This document shows positions 35 through 63,718 of a stretch of DNA of 64,000 nt, piece by piece. The stretch spans positions 124,001 to 188,000 of the forward strand of contig FP929140.1 of the NCBI GenBank assembly GCA_000198515.1, in the 5' to 3' direction. Made by a program: the position numbers and the translations under genes. Every line of letters begins with the position of its first letter. Within the stretch, counting starts at the first letter, position 1. The notes beneath the pieces were generated by a model. The model saw nothing but the letters and a program-made list of their open reading frames with translations. It made no database searches and was not told the DNA's origin. The stretch is from a gamma proteobacterium HdN1. GTDB taxonomy: Bacteria; Pseudomonadota; Gammaproteobacteria; Pseudomonadales; Ketobacteraceae.

Positions 35-1999
35 ATGACAGCAAATACGGGCTATAAAATGTATACTCCCGACTATCGGCAGCGTCAGATGCGGCGTTTT
101 CGGCGCATTTTAAGGCGGTATTTCGGCAGGATCAGCACATCTATGCTGAATGAGGTGCTGAGCGCTTGCGAGTGGATGGAGCTGGAAGGCGGGGAGCTGC
201 TTTTCGGGCAGGGCGATCCCGGTGATGCGGCCTATTTTCTGATTGCAGGGCGCTTGCGTGCGATTCGTTTCCATCCTGACGGCAGTTTTCGCCCGCTCGG
301 AGAAATTCGCCCCGGCGAGATTGTGGGCGAGGAAGCTGTTCTGGCGGAAGATCGCCGTGGTGCCATGGTACGTGCTACGCGCGATAGCGTTGTAGTACGT
401 CTGCCGACGCGCGAGCTGCGTGCTTGGTTTTTGCAGTACCCGCAACTACTGCTTAAAACGGCGCAGTTGATTATCGCTCGAAGTCGCCAAAACACCGGCA
501 TGCGGTATGTGGAGCATGTTTGCAACCTCGCCCTGCTGCCGCTTTCCGTGGGGGTGGATGTGGCATCGTTCCGCGAGGCGTTCGCGCAGGCGCTTGAGCA
601 GCTTGGTCGGGTGTTGATCATTTCTGCCCGCGATGTCGATCAAGCCCTCGGTGAGCAGGGCATTGCACAGGTTGGGCGCGGGGATACTGCGCGCTACCGA
701 CAGCTAAGCGCATGGCTCGATTCGCTGGAGAACCGCTTCGATCATGTCGTCTATTTGGCCGATCCAGCAGATGATGCGTGGACGCAGCGCTGTTTGCGGC
801 AGGCAGACCGCATTGTGTTGCTTGGGGATGCGCAGCAAAGCCCGAGGGTTGCGGCGTTTGAGCCCAGCTTGATGGCGCAGGCTGCGGCGCGCGGGCAAAC
901 GGAAGTACTACTGGCGATTCAGCATCCGGCGAGCACAGTGATGCCGGAAAACACGCGAAGCTGGCTTGCAGATCGGCCTTGGGTGAGCGAAGTGGTGCAC
1001 GTTCGGCAAGCCTGCTCGCGCCATTTGCAGCGGCTGGCGCGTATTGCAACGGGCAAGGCGGTGGGCCTTGTGCTCGGCAGTGGCGGCGCCCGTGGTTTGG
1101 CGGCGGTGGGGATTTTGCAGGCTTTAGAAGAGGCGGGCGTTCCGGTGGACAGGGTGGGAGGCACCAGCATTGGTGCGATTATGGCGGCCACTGTTGCTTT
1201 GGATTTGCCGGCTGGCGATGCGGTTGAACTTGCGAGGCAGTCGTTCTCGCAAAACCCAACCCATATGAAGGATTTAAGCCCCTTGCCAATTCTGGCGATT
1301 TATCGCGGCAAGCGCCTTAATGGGCTGCTGCAGACAACCTTTCCTGAGCAGCTGCATATTGAAGATCTCTGGATCAATTTTTTCTGCATCACCAGCAATA
1401 TGGCCAGTAATGGGGAGGTGGTGCACACCCGTGGCCCCGTATGGAAGGCGTTGCGCGCCTCTGCCTCGCTGCCCGGGATTTTTCCCGTGGTGCGCTTGGA
1501 GGATGGCCTGCATGTGGATGGTGCTTTTCTGAATGCGCTGCCGGTAGATGTCATGGCCGCGCGCGGCGTGCATACGATTCTTGCGGCAGATTTTTCTTCA
1601 ATGCCCTCACCTGCTTTGCGGCAAGCGACGGGGGAGGTGGAGGTCGCCGAGGAGCCGTCGCGTTTGCGTGACTATCTGCGCGAACATTTGTTGGGTCAGC
1701 AGGGCCACACATACCCAGTTCCTAATCTGCTTTCCGGCTTGATCCAGAGTTCTTTGATGGCAAGCTCGCAACGTTCATTGCGCGCTCGGGCTGAGGCCGA
1801 TGTTCTCTTTGCGCCGGACTTGCAGCGCTTTGAGTTGCTTGGCTGGCATTGCTTCGATGATTTGGTTGCGATTGGATATAAGCACGCCCAGAAGGTGTTG
1901 GCGGATCAGTCACGCGGGGGTTCGGAGCCTTCTGTGATGCGTTCTTTGCGAGCACTTTCGTCCACGCGATCGCCCTCGCCCTTTCAAGAAGATCGCTGA
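35..1999 (+). CDS. Patatin-like phospholipase with cyclic-nucleotide-binding domain (NTE/RssA type)
   Basis: 654 residues. The N-terminal part (about 38-150) resembles a cyclic-nucleotide-binding/Crp-like sensor domain. The C-terminal half is a patatin serine hydrolase: oxyanion glycine loop GGARG near residue 350, nucleophile motif GTSIG near 376-380 and the catalytic-dyad DGA near 495. Family members of this architecture (neuropathy target esterase-like) hydrolyse lysophospholipids, and the sensor domain suggests nucleotide or ligand control. The ATG has an AAGG a few bases upstream; a second ATG lies 8 codons downstream. Residues about 623-648 are encoded by a 78-bp sequence repeated at the 3' end of xerC, so the native C-terminus may have been altered by that duplication. 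The substrate cannot be told from sequence. Confidence 0.88.
   Translation: MTANTGYKMYTPDYRQRQMRRFRRILRRYFGRISTSMLNEVLSACEWMELEGGELLFGQGDPGDAAYFLIAGRLRAIRFHPDGSFRPLGEIRPGEIVGEEAVLAEDRRGAMVRATRDSVVVRLPTRELRAWFLQYPQLLLKTAQLIIARSRQNTGMRYVEHVCNLALLPLSVGVDVASFREAFAQALEQLGRVLIISARDVDQALGEQGIAQVGRGDTARYRQLSAWLDSLENRFDHVVYLADPADDAWTQRCLRQADRIVLLGDAQQSPRVAAFEPSLMAQAAARGQTEVLLAIQHPASTVMPENTRSWLADRPWVSEVVHVRQACSRHLQRLARIATGKAVGLVLGSGGARGLAAVGILQALEEAGVPVDRVGGTSIGAIMAATVALDLPAGDAVELARQSFSQNPTHMKDLSPLPILAIYRGKRLNGLLQTTFPEQLHIEDLWINFFCITSNMASNGEVVHTRGPVWKALRASASLPGIFPVVRLEDGLHVDGAFLNALPVDVMAARGVHTILAADFSSMPSPALRQATGEVEVAEEPSRLRDYLREHLLGQQGHTYPVPNLLSGLIQSSLMASSQRSLRARAEADVLFAPDLQRFELLGWHCFDDLVAIGYKHAQKVLADQSRGGSEPSVMRSLRALSSTRSPSPFQEDR
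1902..1979. repeat. 78-bp direct repeat, copy A
   Basis: Matches 3161-3238 at about 74 of 78 positions in the same orientation. It lies inside the 3' end of the patatin-like gene. The two copies, 1259 bp apart, bracket the Fic gene. Both edges of the match are sharp. Confidence 0.92.
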
Positions 2000-2158
2000 A
2001 ACACCAGACGATTGAAGCTTGGCGTGCAAAAATTGGAAGGCAGGGTTTTGGCGTCAGACGGGCAATTGGGCCGTTCGTCCACTGGTTTCCTATGATAGGA
2101 TTTCCGCGAAAAGGAACTTTGCACTTCCTATATCTTGAGCCGAGGTGATAGAGGGATC

Positions 2159-3136
2159 ATGAATTTCAATAAGAGTTTCACCTTGGAACAGCTTGCTGCG
2201 TATTTGGCTAATCCAGATACGCAACGACCATTTGCAAGGTATCGAGAAGAACTGTTGGAGCCGGAACCGGCTTTCACGACAGAAGAAGCTGCGAGGCTGA
2301 TCGAGATTGTCAGGATGGATATTCCCCAATACTCAAAATTCAGTGTTGGCAAACTGCTTGTTGATCTTTCGTGGGCGTCATCGCATTTGGAAGGAAATAC
2401 CTATACGCAATTGGACACTCAAGTCTTAATTGAATATGGGAAAATAAATAAAGATAAGCCCGCCGAAGATGCGGCCATGATTCTCAATCATAAAAAGGCC
2501 ATTGAATATATGGTCTCCAATGTCGCGCTTTCTGAAAAGAATGTGCGAATGATTCACAAGGCGCTTTCAGATAACAGCATGGCACCGGAATCGCGACATT
2601 TTCTTGAGCAGGATAAGTGCGGGATGATCCGTTCGTATACGCCATCAGGCCTTTACATTGCGGGCTCATCGTACATGCCGCCGCAAGCGGAGGACAGGTC
2701 GTTTGGCTACATAGATAAAGAGTTTGGTAAGCTTATTGCTTCTGCCGGCGCACTCCCAGATGCAGTCAATAAATCATTCTTCGTCATGACAAGGATTCCT
2801 TATTTACAAGCGTTTTACGATGCAAACAAGAGAACGTCACGAATAAGCTGCAATATCCCTTTGATAGAGGATGGGTTGTCCCCATTGTCGTTTGTTGATT
2901 TTGAGAAGAGACGATATTTGGAGGGAATGATTGCGTTCTACGAATTGGGCGATGAAAGGCTTGCGAAGAATGCGTATCTGGACGCTTATCTTGCCTCTGC
3001 ATTTCGATACCTTCCGTTTGGGGAGGACGCAAAATTCGCGCTATCGGCGGAGCGAGATAAGCACTTGGCAGCCGCTAGGCGCTATGTGGTGGCTGGTGTG
3101 CGTGAGGCCGAGCCTGTCTGGCTGCGGATAAAATGA
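2159..3136 (+). CDS. Fic-domain protein with Gln in place of the motif histidine
   Basis: 325 residues from the ATG at 2159, which has GAGGG just upstream; a TTG at 2135 in the same frame is less likely. The Fic core motif HxFx(D/E)(A/G)N(G/K)R appears as QAFYDANKR at residues 217-225: the first position, normally the catalytic histidine for AMP transfer, is Gln (codon CAA at 2807). An inhibitory-helix motif of the (S/T)xxxE(G/N) type is present at residues 74-79 (SSHLEG), so it resembles class II Fic proteins with self-inhibition upstream of the core. I recall other Fic proteins with LQPF-type motifs, so Gln may be a subfamily trait. Canonical AMPylation is doubtful. The gene is visibly AT-richer than its neighbours and sits between two copies of a 78-bp repeat, which suggests acquisition. 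No antitoxin gene is visible beside it. Confidence 0.85.
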   Translation: MNFNKSFTLEQLAAYLANPDTQRPFARYREELLEPEPAFTTEEAARLIEIVRMDIPQYSKFSVGKLLVDLSWASSHLEGNTYTQLDTQVLIEYGKINKDKPAEDAAMILNHKKAIEYMVSNVALSEKNVRMIHKALSDNSMAPESRHFLEQDKCGMIRSYTPSGLYIAGSSYMPPQAEDRSFGYIDKEFGKLIASAGALPDAVNKSFFVMTRIPYLQAFYDANKRTSRISCNIPLIEDGLSPLSFVDFEKRRYLEGMIAFYELGDERLAKNAYLDAYLASAFRYLPFGEDAKFALSAERDKHLAAARRYVVAGVREAEPVWLRIK

Positions 3137-3160: not shown

Positions 3161-3238
3161 CGGATCAGTCACGCGGGGGTTCGGAGCCTTCCGTGAGGCG
3201 TTCTTTGCGAGCGCTTTCGTCCACACGATCGCCCTCGC
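3161..3238. repeat. 78-bp direct repeat, copy B
   Basis: Second copy of the sequence at 1902-1979, about four mismatches. Here it encodes, on the minus strand, the last 24 or so residues and the stop codon of xerC. Confidence 0.92.
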
Positions 3239-4193
3239 GGGGAACCGCCGCAGAGGAAGCAATGCGATGTGCGCGTGGATGAGCTTTGTCGTAGACGTCG
3301 GCAAGGTGCTGAAAATCAAGGTGAGTGTAGATTTGGGTGGTCGCAATGTCGGCATGACCGAGCAGCTCTTGCACCGCGCGTAGATCCCCGCTGGATTCCA
3401 ATAAATGGCTCGCAAAGGAATGACGCAACAAGTGAGGGTGCACGCGCCGATCGGTGCCCGCCTTGAGGCTCCACAGGCGTAGGCGTGTCTGAACGCTACG
3501 CGGGCTGATGCGATGGCCATCACGGCTGATAAAAAGAGCGTCCTGCGCCGGTGCGTGGATCGGAAACTGCGCGCGGATGGGCAGCCATGCGAGGATGGCT
3601 TCAAGCGCCTGTCGCCCGATCGGGACAATACGTTCTTTTCGCCCCTTGCCAAGCACCCGAACCGTCGCATCGCTACGATCAATGCTGGAGAGATTGAGAG
3701 TGGTGAGCTCGGAAAGCCGAAGCCCAGAAGAATAGAACAGCTCGAACATCGCCCGATCGCGCTGTTCGAAATGGGAGTCTGGCTCGCGCTCAAGCATTTG
3801 TGCCATCTGGTCTACGTCGAGAACTGCCGGAAGTTTGCGTGCCGCCTTGGGAGCGCGAACGCTACGCGCCGGATTTTGAGTTTGTCCACAGTACTTCATT
3901 TGCCAGCGAAAAAAGCTGCGTAGCGTAGATAGCTGGCGCGCTAAACTTTTGGGGGCGAGGCCCTTTGCATGTTGGGATGCAATAAAACGGCGAATTACCC
4001 CTTCATCGAACGCCGGTTGTGAGTGACGTAGATCCGTGTCGTGGGGCGCTGTGGGAAGATGCTTTTCCAAAAATGCGAGAAACGAATTCAGATCACGCCG
4101 GTAATTGCTGACTGTGTGCGGTGACATTTGGCGCGCGTGAGCGAGATAGTCCAGAAATTGTGTGAACGCATCTTCAAGCCCAGTCATAAGCAT
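3165..4193 (-). CDS. xerC: Tyrosine recombinase XerC
   Basis: 342 residues; XerC is usually about 300. Acts with XerD at the dif site to resolve chromosome dimers at division. N-terminal SAM-like core-binding domain (about 5-105), then the catalytic domain with the full set of residues: R159, K183, H254, R257, H280 and nucleophile Y289. It is the last gene of the lysA-dapF-DUF484-xerC run, 12 nt after the DUF484 stop, the conserved Pseudomonas-type arrangement. No clear Shine-Dalgarno is visible; ATG codons at residues 1 and 3 are both possible. The roughly 30-residue C-terminal extension after about residue 311 is largely encoded by repeat copy B and is not typical of XerC. Confidence 0.95.
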   Translation of the reverse strand: MLMTGLEDAFTQFLDYLAHARQMSPHTVSNYRRDLNSFLAFLEKHLPTAPHDTDLRHSQPAFDEGVIRRFIASQHAKGLAPKSLARQLSTLRSFFRWQMKYCGQTQNPARSVRAPKAARKLPAVLDVDQMAQMLEREPDSHFEQRDRAMFELFYSSGLRLSELTTLNLSSIDRSDATVRVLGKGRKERIVPIGRQALEAILAWLPIRAQFPIHAPAQDALFISRDGHRISPRSVQTRLRLWSLKAGTDRRVHPHLLRHSFASHLLESSGDLRAVQELLGHADIATTQIYTHLDFQHLADVYDKAHPRAHRIASSAAVPREGDRVDESARKERLTEGSEPPRD

Positions 4194-4205: not shown

Positions 4206-4919
4206 TTATAGGAAGGTGGCCAGCCGCCGAGCAATTGCATCTCCCATCCAGCTTACAAACAAGCGATCCATGCTGGGGCTGAAGTGGCTAGGATCGTTGC
4301 TGCCGATGGCGAGCACGCCAAGCGGGTGTTGATAGTGGAGTGGAATCAGCGCAGCCGAACCCTGCTGCATCTCTTGCTGGGGAAACAACAGTGCGAGTTC
4401 TGTGTTGCGGAATGCGCCACAGCTTACCTGATTGTCTTGCAGCCGCGAGCCAACGGTTTCTTGCGCTTGTGCCTGCGAAAGCGTCGTCACGAAGGCGTGA
4501 ACAAGCGGCGTTGAGCGGTTTTGAATCGCCGCATCATAAAGAAACAGGTGGGCGTGATCCATGTGAAAATCGCGGCACATGCTGTTTTGTATCGTGCTTA
4601 CCACCGCATCTAAAGAATCCGCTTCTAGCAGTGCCAGCCCTAGGCGGCGAATCTGTTCGAACAGGCGCTCGTTATCCCGCGCAACGGCTACTAGCTGGCT
4701 GAGGCGATTGCGAAGCTCTGTGTTGCGTTCACGCATGATCCGCACTTGCCGATCGCTGAGTGAAATCGCGGCAGTGCCGTGTGCGGGCGGAAGCTGCAAG
4801 TCTGCTAGCAACTGTTCTTGTTGGTCAAAAAACTCAGGATGTTTGCGTAAATAATCCGCTACCTGTGCCGCAGTGGGAGTGCTTTGAGCTTTCTTTTTGG
4901 CGGCAACGGCTTCGGTCAT
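4206..4919 (-). CDS. DUF484 family protein
   Basis: 237 residues. DUF484 proteins lie almost invariably between dapF and xerC in Pseudomonas-like genomes, as here. N-terminal helical part with the DYLRKHPEFF pattern typical of the family (about 22-31), a predicted coiled segment around 55-85, then a GAF-like domain (about 90-235). Its biochemical role is unknown. The start ATG overlaps the stop of the upstream dapF-like gene by 4 nt (ATGA), so translation is probably coupled. Confidence 0.9.
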   Translation of the reverse strand: MTEAVAAKKKAQSTPTAAQVADYLRKHPEFFDQQEQLLADLQLPPAHGTAAISLSDRQVRIMRERNTELRNRLSQLVAVARDNERLFEQIRRLGLALLEADSLDAVVSTIQNSMCRDFHMDHAHLFLYDAAIQNRSTPLVHAFVTTLSQAQAQETVGSRLQDNQVSCGAFRNTELALLFPQQEMQQGSAALIPLHYQHPLGVLAIGSNDPSHFSPSMDRLFVSWMGDAIARRLATFL

Positions 4920-5920
4920 AAGGCAATGCTTCCCTCAAAAACGGTGGTGGCGGTTCCGCCCAAGCGCATGACTTGATTATCCCCTTGCCAGTGAATACCA
5001 AGCGTATGAGCAGAAAATCCGGGTGTGGGTGCGTGTAAAAGCACTTGAACAGGATGATCAATGAGTTGTTGGCGTAGCCCAACGGCGGCTGCAATGAAAG
5101 CGTCTGTATCACGCCCGCCAACTTCTAATGCTCCCGCTGCCCCTGCATCCTCGGTTAAGAAGGTGCTCTCGGTGCGTGCTCTGAAGAAGCGTAAATGTAC
5201 CCGTTTACGGTTCTCCACCTGCATAAACATAATAGTAGCTTGCTTTGGAAAAAGTGTATGGTTTTCAAGCGCTGATGCGATGGCTTGCAGCGCTTTGCGA
5301 TCCATATTGTCTGCCATGAGCAGGGCGTGCGAGTGAGTGCCCGTCTCACCTGCGGGCGTGTGGATGAGCGTAACAGGAGTGCTGTGAGAGGGGGTTACAA
5401 GGTTGAAGCTTTGGCTTTTAGTAAAGGTGTTTGCCCATGCGGGCGGTAAAAAGTCGATGCACGCTTCTTCAAATTCCCCGATTTGCACGGTGAGTTCGCC
5501 GAGCGGTGTCTCGATGAGCAATTGGTGCTTGTTGGTGAGCTGCCTTTGGCGCACGAACTGCGCAACGCAGCGGGCAGCGCCTAGCATCTCAAGAAGGTGG
5601 GCTGGGTGAGTGGCCTCTTGCGCTCTGCCGATTTCTTCACCATTTGCCGTGAACAGTCGGAAGCGAAAATCCGCATCCGGCGTTGCCGGCGGCAATACCA
5701 TCAGCAGCGCGCCAAACACAATACCGAGTTGTGGGTGGGCGAGCCGCTGAATCTGTTGCGCCTCGATTCGGTAGTACTGGCTGACCAAATCAATGACTAG
5801 GAAATCCTCGCCAGACGCATACATTTTGGTAAATTGCAGCCTACCCGTAGTGTTGCGGGTATAGGTCGCGCGCGGCGCTCGTGTGCGTTTACGGCGCCTT
5901 GCGTTAGGTTTGCGTTTCAC
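4916..5920 (-). CDS. DapF-fold protein lacking both catalytic cysteines (degenerate diaminopimelate epimerase)
   Basis: 334 residues, in the standard dapF position. DapF interconverts LL- and meso-diaminopimelate with two cysteines (Cys73 and Cys217 in H. influenzae). The fold is recognisable: FTKM near 30-33, DF at 39-40, DFRFRLF at 84-90, GAARCVAQF at 114-122, and the C-terminal pattern ending EGSIAL. The key residues are not: the HGLGND signature reads YASGED, the QCGNG loop is replaced by a longer loop at about 96-113 without cysteine, GNPHCV is replaced by THSHAL, and the ACGTGACAA loop is replaced by TEDAGAAGA at about 257-264. There is also an N-terminal basic extension of about 28 residues. 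The GTG start overlaps the lysA stop by 4 nt, which supports the long form. The frame is open throughout, so this is not a simple frameshift. Epimerase activity is unlikely; a regulatory or binding role is inference. Confidence 0.85.
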   Translation of the reverse strand: MKRKPNARRRKRTRAPRATYTRNTTGRLQFTKMYASGEDFLVIDLVSQYYRIEAQQIQRLAHPQLGIVFGALLMVLPPATPDADFRFRLFTANGEEIGRAQEATHPAHLLEMLGAARCVAQFVRQRQLTNKHQLLIETPLGELTVQIGEFEEACIDFLPPAWANTFTKSQSFNLVTPSHSTPVTLIHTPAGETGTHSHALLMADNMDRKALQAIASALENHTLFPKQATIMFMQVENRKRVHLRFFRARTESTFLTEDAGAAGALEVGGRDTDAFIAAAVGLRQQLIDHPVQVLLHAPTPGFSAHTLGIHWQGDNQVMRLGGTATTVFEGSIAL

Positions 5921-7185
5921 GGAACAAGGGATTCCAGCTGAAGTTGGTAGTCGTAGCTTTCGCGGGCACGCACAATGTGGAATTGCTCTTTATCCACGAT
6001 CACTTCAGCGGCACGGTTGCGAGTATTGTAGTTGGAACTCATCACAAAGCCGTAGGCGCCTGCCGATTTTACCGCAAGGAGGTCCCCTTGCTGGATGCGG
6101 AGTGCGCGCTCTTTGCCTAAAAAGTCGCCGGTTTCGCAGACGGGGCCGACGATATCATAGGTGGCTTCGGGCGAGTCTTGGCGTTCCTTGACAGCGACAA
6201 TTTCTTGCCAGGCACCATAGAGTGCGGGCCGAATCAGATCGTTCATGGCGCCGTCGATGATGGCGAACTTGCGCGCAGGGGTTTCTTTGAGGCCCATGAT
6301 GCGGGTCAGAAGAACGCCGGCGTTTGCGACGATGGCGCGGCCCGGTTCAAGAATGATCTCTATGCCCTGCTTGCCAAATTCGGGGTGCTGGCCAAGGCGC
6401 GTAAGCAGCGCTTGTACATAGTCGCTAGGGCTGGGTGGTTGCTCGTTGCGGTAGCAGACGCCCAAGCCGCCGCCAAGGTCAAGATGACGAAGCGCAATGC
6501 CTTCCGCTTTCAGCGCATCTACGAGCACCAGCACCCGATCCAGAGCATCGAGGAACGGGGCGAGCTGGGTCAATTGGGAGCCAATATGGCAGTCAACCCC
6601 TACGATGTTGATGTGGGGGAGCTCGCTGGCGTCACGATAGACCTGCAGGGCGCGATCAATATCAATGCCGAATTTGTTTTCTTTCAGGCCCGTCGAAATG
6701 TAGGGGTGAGTTTGTGCGTCTACATCTGGGTTGACTCGGAGTGAGACAGGTGCCTTTACGCCCAGCGTCGCTGCAACTTGGTTGAGCGTATGTAGTTCGC
6801 TCTCCGATTCGACGTTAAAGCAGCGCACGCCAACGGTAAGTGCCCGCGCCATCTCTGCTGGCTGCTTGCCAACGCCTGAGAAAACCACTTTTTTGGGGTC
6901 GCCGCCCGCCCGCAGTACGCGCTCCAGCTCGCCTTCCGAGACGATATCAAAGCCGGCTCCTAAACGTGCGAGGAGGTTCAGTACCGCGATATTGGAGTTG
7001 GCTTTTACTGCAAAGCACACGAGGTGGGGATGCGCGCCAAAAGCGCGATCAAAAGCAAGCCATTGCTGCTCAATCGCCGAGCGCGAATAAACGTAGGCTG
7101 GTGTGCCGACCTGTTCGGCCAGCTGTGTGAGGTTCACTTGCTCGGCGTGAAGTTCGTGGTTTTGGTAATGGAAGGCTGAACTCAT
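5917..7185 (-). CDS. lysA: Diaminopimelate decarboxylase
   Basis: 422 residues. PLP enzyme (fold type III) that decarboxylates meso-diaminopimelate to L-lysine, the last step of lysine synthesis. PLP-lysine motif FAVKANSN near residues 59-66, glycine-rich segment LDLGGGLGVCY in the middle, EPGRAIVANAG, and the VCETGDFLGKER active-site segment near 345. Start ATG overlaps the lptM stop by 4 nt; the stop overlaps the following dapF-like GTG. The enzyme needs meso-DAP, which makes the degenerate epimerase next door notable. Confidence 0.97.
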   Translation of the reverse strand: MSSAFHYQNHELHAEQVNLTQLAEQVGTPAYVYSRSAIEQQWLAFDRAFGAHPHLVCFAVKANSNIAVLNLLARLGAGFDIVSEGELERVLRAGGDPKKVVFSGVGKQPAEMARALTVGVRCFNVESESELHTLNQVAATLGVKAPVSLRVNPDVDAQTHPYISTGLKENKFGIDIDRALQVYRDASELPHINIVGVDCHIGSQLTQLAPFLDALDRVLVLVDALKAEGIALRHLDLGGGLGVCYRNEQPPSPSDYVQALLTRLGQHPEFGKQGIEIILEPGRAIVANAGVLLTRIMGLKETPARKFAIIDGAMNDLIRPALYGAWQEIVAVKERQDSPEATYDIVGPVCETGDFLGKERALRIQQGDLLAVKSAGAYGFVMSSNYNTRNRAAEVIVDKEQFHIVRARESYDYQLQLESLVP

Positions 7186-43696: not shown

Positions 43697-43882
43697 ATAG
43701 ATGCTCCCCGCGATGCCGTTGCTGGCGTAAGCCCCTTGAACCCAGGGTTCAAGGGGGGAGGCTTCCTAGGCGCATCGGGCTTTCCGCAAAGCGGACATGC
43801 ACTCCCGCGCCTATAGGGAGCCCCCAATAGGTGAAACATCGGCTCAGGGACTTGGCCAGTGAGCGAACACCACAGGGAGCAT
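43697..43882 (-). ncRNA. ssrS: 6S RNA
   Basis: Regulatory RNA that binds sigma-70 RNA polymerase. On the minus strand it contains the conserved TGTTCGC and CCTGAGCCGAT near the 5' end and the CCTTGAACC/GGGTTCAAGGG hairpin near the 3' end. The termini pair as AGATGCTCCC (about 43884-43875) with GGGAGCATCT (about 43708-43699). Length about 186 nt, as usual. Position between zapA and 5-FCL is the canonical one. Ends are given to within a few bases. Confidence 0.93.
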
Positions 43883-60540: not shown

Positions 60541-61074
60541 GTGATCGACGAAGAAGGCTTTCGCCCCAATGTAGGCATCATTTTGGCCAACCCACAAGGA
60601 CAGGTGCTTTGGGCCAAGCGCGTCGGGCAGCAGGACGCTTGGCAATTTCCGCAGGGTGGTATTAACGACAACGAAAACCCCGAAGATGCGCTGTTTCGCG
60701 AACTATGGGAAGAAGTCGGGCTCACCGAAGCCAGTGTTGACGTCATTGCCTGTACACGCGGCTGGTTGAAGTATCGCTTACCGCGAAAATTTTTGCGGCA
60801 TCGCAGCAAACCGCTTTGCATCGGCCAAAAGCAAAAGTGGTTCCTACTGCGAATGAACGGTGAAGACAGCGCAGTGACCTTCCAGCAGGGCAGCCCACCT
60901 GAATTCGATGACTGGCGTTGGGTTAGCTACTGGTATCCGCTTCAGGAAGTTGTGTCGTTCAAGCGTGATGTTTATCGCCGCGCCCTTACCGAACTCGCTC
61001 CGAGTTTGCATGGGTTTACGAGCCGTAATCGGCTGGCCATGCCCATACGGCTCGCTCCGCTGGCAAGCCCTTAG
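60541..61074 (+). CDS. rppH: RNA pyrophosphohydrolase
   Basis: 177 residues; GTG start gives the standard [11 protein letters not shown] beginning. Nudix box [17 protein letters not shown] followed by WEEVGL is complete. Removes pyrophosphate from the 5' end of mRNA and triggers decay. Upstream of ptsP as in Pseudomonas. Confidence 0.95.
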
Positions 61075-61321: not shown

Positions 61322-63718
61322 ATGCTGGAAACCCTGCGCCGTATCGTCCAAGATGTAAATGCTGCCGATGATCTTCGATCGGCGCTGGACGTTATGGTCT
61401 CCAGTATCCGCGAGGCGGTGGGTACCGAAGTCTGCTCAATCTACCTGCTGGATCGCCGCGTCAATCGCTATATTCTAATGGCCACCAAAGGCTTGAACGA
61501 AGATGCAGTAGGGCGCGTTTCGCTTGCCATCAACGAGGGCCTTGTCGGGCTTGTGGGTACCCGCGAGGAGCCAATCAACCTGGATGATGCGCCCTCTCAC
61601 CCGCGCTTTCACTTTATTGCCGAAGTGGGCGAGGAGCCGTTCCACTCGTTTTTAGGGGCCCCGATCATCCACCACCGGCGCTTGTTGGGCGTGCTGGTGG
61701 TTCAGCAGCGCGATCGTCGCTGCTATGATCCTAATGAGGAAGCGTTTTTCGTCACGATGTCGGCCCAGCTTGCCGCCGTAATCGCGCATGCGGAAGTGAC
61801 GGGCACGCTGAGTGGCCTGATGGGGGTGCGAGTCGGGCCTACCCGGATTGAAGGGATCAGTGGTTCCAACGGCATTGCGATGGGAACTGCCTATGTGATC
61901 TATCCCACCGCAGATTTGCGCTCTTTGCCGGATCGTCCGGCAAAAGATATTTCGAAAGAGATGTTACTGCTGGATGATGCGCTGGATGCAGTGCGTGCAG
62001 ATATCCGCACCTTGGCTGAGAAAGCCTTAAGCCACTTGCCGCCCGAAGAACAGGCGCTGTTTCAGGTGTATGAGAGGATGCTTGAGGAATCGGCGCTTGC
62101 GGGCGAGATCCGAGAGCGTGTGCGTGCAGGCAACTGGGTGCAAGGGGCGTTGCGCGAAGTGGTTTTGCGCCATGTTCGTGCCTTTGAGGCGATGGATGAT
62201 GAATATCTGCGCGCCCGCGCTTCTGACGTGCGCGATCTTGGCTTGCGGATATTGCGCTACTTGCAGATCGAAAAGGTGAGCAATGGCGAGGTTCCAGCGC
62301 GTGCGGTGGTGATTGGTGAGGAGCTTGCTCCCACCGTATTTGTTGATGTGCCGCGTGAGCGTATCGTGGGGATCGCCTCGCTGCAGGGCTCCAGCAATAG
62401 CCATATGTCGATTGTCGCGCGGTCGATGTCGATTCCTACCGTGGTTGGGATCGGGGATATTCCGCTCTCGCGGGTCGACGGTAAAGAAGTCATCGTTGAC
62501 GGTTATCGCGGTGAACTCATTGTGTCGCCAACCAGCGAAATGCGTCGCCACTATCTGGAGATCATGGAGGAGGAGCGCCAGGTCAATCGTGAGCTGGACG
62601 AAGTGCGTCACCTCCCCTGTGTAACTCCAGACGGGCGGGAAATTCGCCTGCTCGTCAATACCGGGCTTGCGGTGGATGTCACTATGGCGTTGGAGCGCGG
62701 CGCGCAGGGAGTCGGGCTATATCGTACCGAAATCCCCTTTATGGTGCGCGACCGTTTTCCCACGGAAACCGAGCAGATGGAAATTTATCGCCGTCAACTC
62801 GAAGCCTTCCACCCGCGCAGCGTCGTGATGCGTACTCTGGATGTGGGCAGCGACAAAGCCTTGCCCTACTTTCCGATCAAAGAAGAAAATCCTGCGCTCG
62901 GCTGGCGCGGCATTCGCATTACGCTCGATCAGCCGGAAATATTTCTGGTGCAAGTGCGCGCCATGTTGTGGGCCAGTGAGGGCTTGGATAACCTGCGGAT
63001 TTTGCTGCCGATGATTTCATCGGTCAGCGAGATTGAAGACGCGCTCCACTTGATTCACCGTGCTTATCTTGAGGTGCTAGAGGAGGGCGCTCATATCCGG
63101 ATGCCTGACGTTGGCGGGATGATCGAAGTGCCTGCAGCGGTCTATCAGGTGCGCGAATTTTGCCGCCACGTGGACTTTCTGTCGGTCGGCTCGAATGACC
63201 TGACCCAGTACATGCTGGCGGTCGATCGCAACAACCGCCGCGTGGCGCGCCTCTATCAGCCGTTTCATCCGGCGGTGTTGCGCGCGCTTCATCAGATCGT
63301 TCAGATCGCGGGTGAGGAAAACACTCCTGTTTCGCTTTGTGGCGAAATGGCGGGCGACCCTCGCGCTGCGGTGCTTCTGCTCGGCATGGGTTACAGCATG
63401 TTGAGCATGAGTGCGACCAGCCTGCTTCGCGTCAAATGGGTGCTGCGCCGGATCGGTTTTGCGCGCGCTCAAGAGATTTTCAATGATGTGATGCGCATGG
63501 AGAGCGCCCAAGCGGTTCGCAGCCATCTTGACTACATCCTCGAAAAGGAAGGCTTGGGAAGCTACATTCGCCCCATGCACTCCGCAACGGGCTATATCGA
63601 CAAAGAGGAGGTACCGGGCGTGAGTGTTCAGCCGCTTCCTGCGTCCACTTCCGCGCCTCTTGCGCCTGCTTCCGGCACGCTTACGGCCCCGTCTGGCGTG
63701 CAAGTCTCTCGCGCTTGA
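61322..63718 (+). CDS. ptsP: PTS enzyme I, nitrogen-related (EI-Ntr)
   Basis: 798 residues. GAF domain (about 15-160), then PEP-utilising enzyme I: phospho-histidine H361 in NSHMSIVARSMSIPTVVG, MIEVPAAV and SVGSNDLTQYMLAVDRNN near 622-640, active-site C673 in LCGEMAGDPRA. Phosphorylates NPr in the nitrogen PTS. About 250 nt after rppH; the spacer has only the hairpin and degenerate repeats. C-terminal tail of about 30 Ala/Ser/Pro residues. Confidence 0.96.
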   Translation: MLETLRRIVQDVNAADDLRSALDVMVSSIREAVGTEVCSIYLLDRRVNRYILMATKGLNEDAVGRVSLAINEGLVGLVGTREEPINLDDAPSHPRFHFIAEVGEEPFHSFLGAPIIHHRRLLGVLVVQQRDRRCYDPNEEAFFVTMSAQLAAVIAHAEVTGTLSGLMGVRVGPTRIEGISGSNGIAMGTAYVIYPTADLRSLPDRPAKDISKEMLLLDDALDAVRADIRTLAEKALSHLPPEEQALFQVYERMLEESALAGEIRERVRAGNWVQGALREVVLRHVRAFEAMDDEYLRARASDVRDLGLRILRYLQIEKVSNGEVPARAVVIGEELAPTVFVDVPRERIVGIASLQGSSNSHMSIVARSMSIPTVVGIGDIPLSRVDGKEVIVDGYRGELIVSPTSEMRRHYLEIMEEERQVNRELDEVRHLPCVTPDGREIRLLVNTGLAVDVTMALERGAQGVGLYRTEIPFMVRDRFPTETEQMEIYRRQLEAFHPRSVVMRTLDVGSDKALPYFPIKEENPALGWRGIRITLDQPEIFLVQVRAMLWASEGLDNLRILLPMISSVSEIEDALHLIHRAYLEVLEEGAHIRMPDVGGMIEVPAAVYQVREFCRHVDFLSVGSNDLTQYMLAVDRNNRRVARLYQPFHPAVLRALHQIVQIAGEENTPVSLCGEMAGDPRAAVLLLGMGYSMLSMSATSLLRVKWVLRRIGFARAQEIFNDVMRMESAQAVRSHLDYILEKEGLGSYIRPMHSATGYIDKEEVPGVSVQPLPASTSAPLAPASGTLTAPSGVQVSRA

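Follow-up and report, generated by a model that had tools for sequence, protein, structure and literature searches.

We analysed a window of 64,000 nucleotides from the genome of the gamma proteobacterium HdN1 (contig FP929140.1, positions 124,001 to 188,000) and found that the gene in its canonical dapF position, here called pseudo-dapF, very probably encodes a pseudoenzyme. DapF, the diaminopimelate (DAP) epimerase, is an essential cell-wall and lysine enzyme. The HdN1 protein, pseudo-DapF, has lost the catalytic residues, and by indirect measures the positions of its fold have stayed under constraint, as the initial annotation of this stretch had proposed. Elsewhere the genome encodes a different set of enzymes for the DAP branch. 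We place at about 0.47, slightly below even odds, the probability of an account in which the pathway was swapped and the old DapF persisted for binding rather than catalysis, with the RNA pyrophosphohydrolase RppH as the best candidate partner. The gene, its altered parts and its operon neighbours are as follows.

4916-5920, minus strand: pseudo-dapF, encoding a DapF-fold protein without catalytic cysteines (family models, alignment, AlphaFold2, fold search)
5840-5920, minus strand: basic N-terminal extension of pseudo-DapF, residues 1-27
5573-5629, minus strand: replaced first cysteine loop, residues 98-116, QCGNG to AQEATHPAHLLEMLG with a 12-residue insert (alignment)
5099-5182, minus strand: replaced second cysteine loop, residues 247-274, with 11- and 3-residue inserts (alignment; predicted local distance difference test, pLDDT, below 50 for residues 249-267)
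5917-7185, minus strand: lysA, diaminopimelate decarboxylase, intact and normally conserved (TIGR01048, 546 bits)
4206-4919, minus strand: gene for a DUF484 protein (PF04340, 163 bits), with an ATGA overlap with pseudo-dapF
3165-4193, minus strand: xerC (TIGR02224, 366 bits)

The gene runs as one open frame of 334 codons from a GTG start to a TGA stop, encoding 334 amino acids. It overlaps lysA by GTGA at 5917-5920 and the DUF484 gene by ATGA at 4916-4919, and the lysA-dapF-DUF484-xerC order is intact; frame, overlaps and order all agree with the initial annotation. DapF is the best family for the protein, which reaches 47.4 bits against PF01678 (cut-off 34.7) on what remains of the pattern and 77.5 bits against the DapF equivalog model TIGR00652, under its cut-off of 114.65. 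Like canonical DapF (TIGR00652, PF01678), pseudo-DapF has the fold, the operon slot and gene order, and scaffold residues of the family. Unlike canonical DapF, it has no catalytic cysteine, nearly all substrate residues are gone, the active-site loops are enlarged, a basic tail is present and the TIGR00652 score is below threshold.

Alignment of pseudo-DapF with 50 canonical DapFs shows that the catalytic cysteines C73 and C217 (E. coli/H. influenzae numbering) are both gone. The first cysteine motif, QCGNGARC, is replaced by AQEATHPAHLLEMLGAARC with the 12-residue insert, and the second, ERGAGETLACGTGAC, by a cysteine-free loop that occupies the place of the expected ERGAGETLACGTG motif. Both loops had been described as replaced, at residues 96-113 and 255-264; the replacement stands, and the ranges are corrected here to about 98-116 and 247-274. 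The only cysteines left are C118, which aligns with the non-catalytic cysteine of GARC, and C154, which lies on a strand. When the loops are registered from the helices that follow them, C73 corresponds to M112 and C217 to R271, and G218 is then lost as well. A catalytic cysteine shifted in register was considered and rejected, as neither loop contains a cysteine under any alignment register. The HGLGND, GNPH and FDQ segments are also missing, as previously noted: HGLGND has become YASGED, GNPH has become THSH and GFDQ has become VFGA, and both N64 and N190 are replaced by T.

From H. influenzae structures we take N11, Q44, N64, G74, N75, N157, N190, E208, R209 and G218 to be the substrate contacts of DapF, and N11, Q44, N64, N157, N190, E208 and R209 are lost in pseudo-DapF. 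These ten contacts and the two catalytic cysteines make up 12 tested positions, of which at most one is kept, compared with 51 of 93 further positions with an invariance of 90% or higher (Fisher p=0.004). In canonical controls, 100% and 97.7% of the two sets are kept. Pseudo-DapF almost certainly lacks epimerase activity. A basic N-terminal extension was also correctly recognized in the initial annotation, and its length, given there as about 28 residues, is 26-27 residues, including 12 K/R and no D/E; in most relatives the distance from the Met start to the FTKM motif is about 2-5 residues. An artefact in which the frame was shifted and restored was rejected because homology spans the whole frame and flanks each loop, the inserts are multiples of three at the cysteine loops or frame-neutral, and the coding signature is in frame.

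The hydrophobic core of the protein has been retained. The family has 70 hydrophobic columns, and 61 of them stay hydrophobic in pseudo-DapF, compared with 23.5 expected from shuffling. A consensus DapF evolved to an equal 38% identity with only stop codons forbidden keeps 45.5±3.7 of these columns (maximum 56 in 300 runs), and thus selection held the fold and not merely the frame. When a native-like DapF decays without constraint to 40% identity, it gathers 6.3 stops on average, and none of 100 runs stayed free of stops. Codon use of pseudo-dapF, whose coding bias is in frame, scores 0.663 on a measure like the codon adaptation index, nearer to its neighbours (0.69-0.76) than to random codons (0.542). 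The alignment-guided AlphaFold2 model predicts a confident two-lobe DapF fold (pLDDT 81.8, predicted template modelling score 0.80), in which the second loop is the only long low-confidence stretch. This model matches P. aeruginosa DapF (8qzy; VIA Z 27.4, 261 residues aligned, root-mean-square deviation 3.4) and the DapF chain of the E. coli RppH-DapF complex (VIA Z 26.9). Thus scaffold and core are kept far above chance, and the gene is probably not debris either.

Relatives within the order carry a normal dapF in the slot between lysA and DUF484. The lysA-dapF-DUF484-xerC order was found in nearly all relatives examined, and all those with the same slot keep both catalytic cysteine motifs; the motif check flagged one of them (L005), but its sequence is SCGTGA, with the cysteine retained. 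LysA of HdN1 is ordinary, with 64% mean identity to 52 relatives (66% among the relatives themselves). The DapF of HdN1 is at 35% identity to the relatives, which average 60%. In a regression of DapF on LysA identity, HdN1 has a mean residual of -0.24, about 24 points under the LysA prediction, with a per-genome standard deviation of 0.019. In a tree, pseudo-DapF forms an end branch of 10 and its placement is unusable. A literature search for a DapF pseudoenzyme gave a single hit, which, judged by title and abstract, appears to mention both terms only in passing.

Epimerase activity had been expected to come from elsewhere in the genome, and searches of the single 4.59 Mb contig (100% completeness) bear this out for a second dapF, for dapL and for ddh, each over its cut-off. 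A canonical epimerase, DapF2, is encoded at 988398-989204 (L001; TIGR00652, 310 bits) and carries both cysteines, in the motifs QCGNGARC (ECGNGARC-type) and ACGTGACA. Its gene lies near nadE and a gene for a PatB-type C-S lyase. The nearest DapFs to DapF2 are betaproteobacterial (Comamonas denitrificans, Azovibrio), and it groups with the C. denitrificans protein (99/95 support). Grouping with the family's own dapF is rejected by the approximately unbiased test (p=0.0265) and a betaproteobacterial grouping is not (p=0.31). On these sequence affinities, DapF2 is of outside origin and no within-family duplicate.

LL-DAP aminotransferase (DapL) is encoded at 3767682-3768890 (TIGR03542, 576 bits). 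Genes gltB-gltD are followed directly downstream by dapL on the same strand (3767673-3775284; L078:7674-15285); glutamate, the product of the glutamate synthase encoded by gltB-gltD, is the amino donor of DapL. A meso-DAP dehydrogenase (Ddh) is encoded at 3551196-3552377 (L079:7197-8378; TIGR01921, 447 bits), with its C-terminal domain at 3551760-3552221, and with Ddh present an epimerase is not strictly required. Profile searches of the HdN1 genome identified no DapD of either type and no DapE over the cut-off (best 31.7 bits). Those searches did find DapE and either one of the two DapD types in the relatives, with a few gaps in incomplete genomes. DapL is over the cut-off in 0 of 23 relatives, and Ddh is rare (1 of 57). 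Bacteroides fragilis and Clostridium thermocellum are named as the confirmed cases with both DapL and Ddh (PMC4176475). Like such variant pathways, HdN1 carries bona fide DapL and Ddh. Unlike them, it has these enzymes in place of the DapD/DapE branch of its relatives, and the old dapF was left in place as a pseudoenzyme.

This rebuilt branch would explain how the old dapF could lose its chemistry. In the order of events that we infer, the succinylase branch (dapD, dapE) would have disappeared from the lineage, and DapL, Ddh and the outside second DapF would have been gained. Flux to meso-DAP would then run from tetrahydrodipicolinate (THDP) to LL-DAP via DapL and on to meso-DAP via DapF2, and/or from THDP to meso-DAP via Ddh, and epimerase duty would have passed to DapF2 and/or Ddh. 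Once relieved of catalysis in this scenario, the old DapF shed both catalytic cysteines, the residues that bind substrate and the form of the two active-site loops. It kept its two-lobe fold, its operon place and translational coupling, and gained the basic tail. The protein, presumably still produced, was most likely kept for binding without catalysis, and the best candidate for the kept role is to bind RppH and stimulate removal of pyrophosphate from RNA 5' ends. The cognate rppH is present in the same genome and lies within the window:

60541-61074, plus strand: rppH, RNA pyrophosphohydrolase, proposed partner of pseudo-DapF (NF001937, 261.5 bits)
61322-63718: ptsP, next after rppH (NF008283, 828 bits)

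E. coli DapF binds to RppH with nanomolar affinity and stimulates its RNA pyrophosphohydrolase activity, and the epimerase-dead DapF(C73A/C217A) still does both (PMC4227774). When this mutant is overexpressed, some RppH-target transcripts have shorter half-lives, an effect that is stronger together with RppH, and cells become salt-sensitive in the same RppH-dependent way as when wild-type DapF is overproduced (PMC4227774). A further double mutant, DapF R36A/Y268A, likewise remains functional towards RppH (PMC7144940); in pseudo-DapF, R36 is lost (P63). Like DapF(C73A/C217A), pseudo-DapF is a catalytically dead DapF in an organism with RppH, although the former is a two-substitution laboratory mutant that binds and stimulates its partner and the latter is natural and deeply diverged, with RppH binding only proposed. 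The basic tail would suit a protein working near RNA. The initial annotation proposed no role for the retained protein; by analogy with E. coli, we tentatively favour RppH activation, at somewhat less than an even chance. A natural separation of function, in which the ancestral DapF would survive only as a non-enzymatic RppH activator after horizontal replacement of the DAP pathway, we consider rather more doubtful.

Several points weigh against this account. The AlphaFold2 model, built with canonical homologues as a guide, is no independent evidence that the protein folds. Searches of 390 other genomes of the order and of genome_contigs gave no second genome with the variant, and in these searches the genus was represented by the HdN1 genome only. 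As pseudo-DapF is a singleton, the ratio of nonsynonymous to synonymous substitution rates is out of reach and constraint over time is not measurable. Furthermore, DapF2 itself could serve RppH.

Other explanations were weighed, and the one ranked highest among them is that pseudo-DapF is a regulatory or stabilizing subunit, pairing with DapF2 or another partner with no action on RppH. DapF is a dimer. The retained fold fits such a subunit, as does an aromatic residue kept at the position of the dimer-interface residue Y268 of E. coli (TTVFEGS, compared with HVYDGF), where DapF2 has Tyr. However, pseudo-DapF and DapF2 are only about 32% identical and differ in origin, so any shared interface would need to have evolved afresh, and we consider this explanation unlikely. 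Ranked next, and also unlikely, is a neofunctionalized enzyme with new, non-cysteine chemistry on another substrate in a remodelled cleft. PhzF-family isomerases of the DapF fold work without cysteines, PhzF structures are among the fold-search matches, and both active-site loops are enlarged, beyond mutation alone. The match to the PhzF family hidden Markov model is weak, however (13.9 bits, far under the 76.2-bit cut-off), the second loop is predicted to be disordered at residues 249-267, and no clear new acid/base pair was identified.

A slowly decaying relic, or a frame open only for ATGA-coupled translation of DUF484 and xerC, is improbable and ranks after new chemistry. The genome has catalytic redundancy, pseudo-dapF sits between two overlapping genes, and residues 150-190, in the middle of the protein, bear little resemblance to the family, all of which would suit decay. 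Core retention above the open-frame-only maximum, the decay simulations, the excess loss of active-site positions and the confident predicted fold speak against it, and we rejected neutral decay as the main account. It is highly improbable that pseudo-DapF is still an active epimerase whose cysteines are brought into register by loop rearrangement: two cysteines do remain, but C118 and C154 are in neither loop, and seven substrate contacts are lost with the catalytic pair.

If retention as a non-catalytic RppH-binding protein is right, HdN1 offers a natural experiment on which function of a moonlighting metabolic enzyme is really preserved by selection. The effect of DapF on RppH in E. coli is independent of epimerase activity, and the HdN1 genome would be the evolutionary counterpart. 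If the natural separation of function is true, a moonlighting role alone suffices to keep a gene in its operon. As we read it, the genome records the complete exchange of an essential pathway, in which DapL, Ddh and an outside DapF took over from the succinylase branch and the displaced enzyme was apparently kept as a scaffold. There is also a warning here, as automated annotation will label pseudo-dapF an epimerase or miss the gene.

Other features of the window lie outside this operon. Beside xerC, an open reading frame of 333 amino acids (2135-3136, plus strand) contains a Fic-like segment, YLQAFYDANKRTSR, and possibly encodes a divergent Fic-domain protein; it has no Pfam match at 1e-5 and no NCBIfam match at 0.001. 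At 35-1999 (plus strand) is encoded a 654-amino-acid protein with an N-terminal part that resembles cyclic-nucleotide-binding domains and a patatin-like phospholipase part. A 6S RNA at 43701-43881 (minus strand) is the sole Rfam match over threshold in the window.
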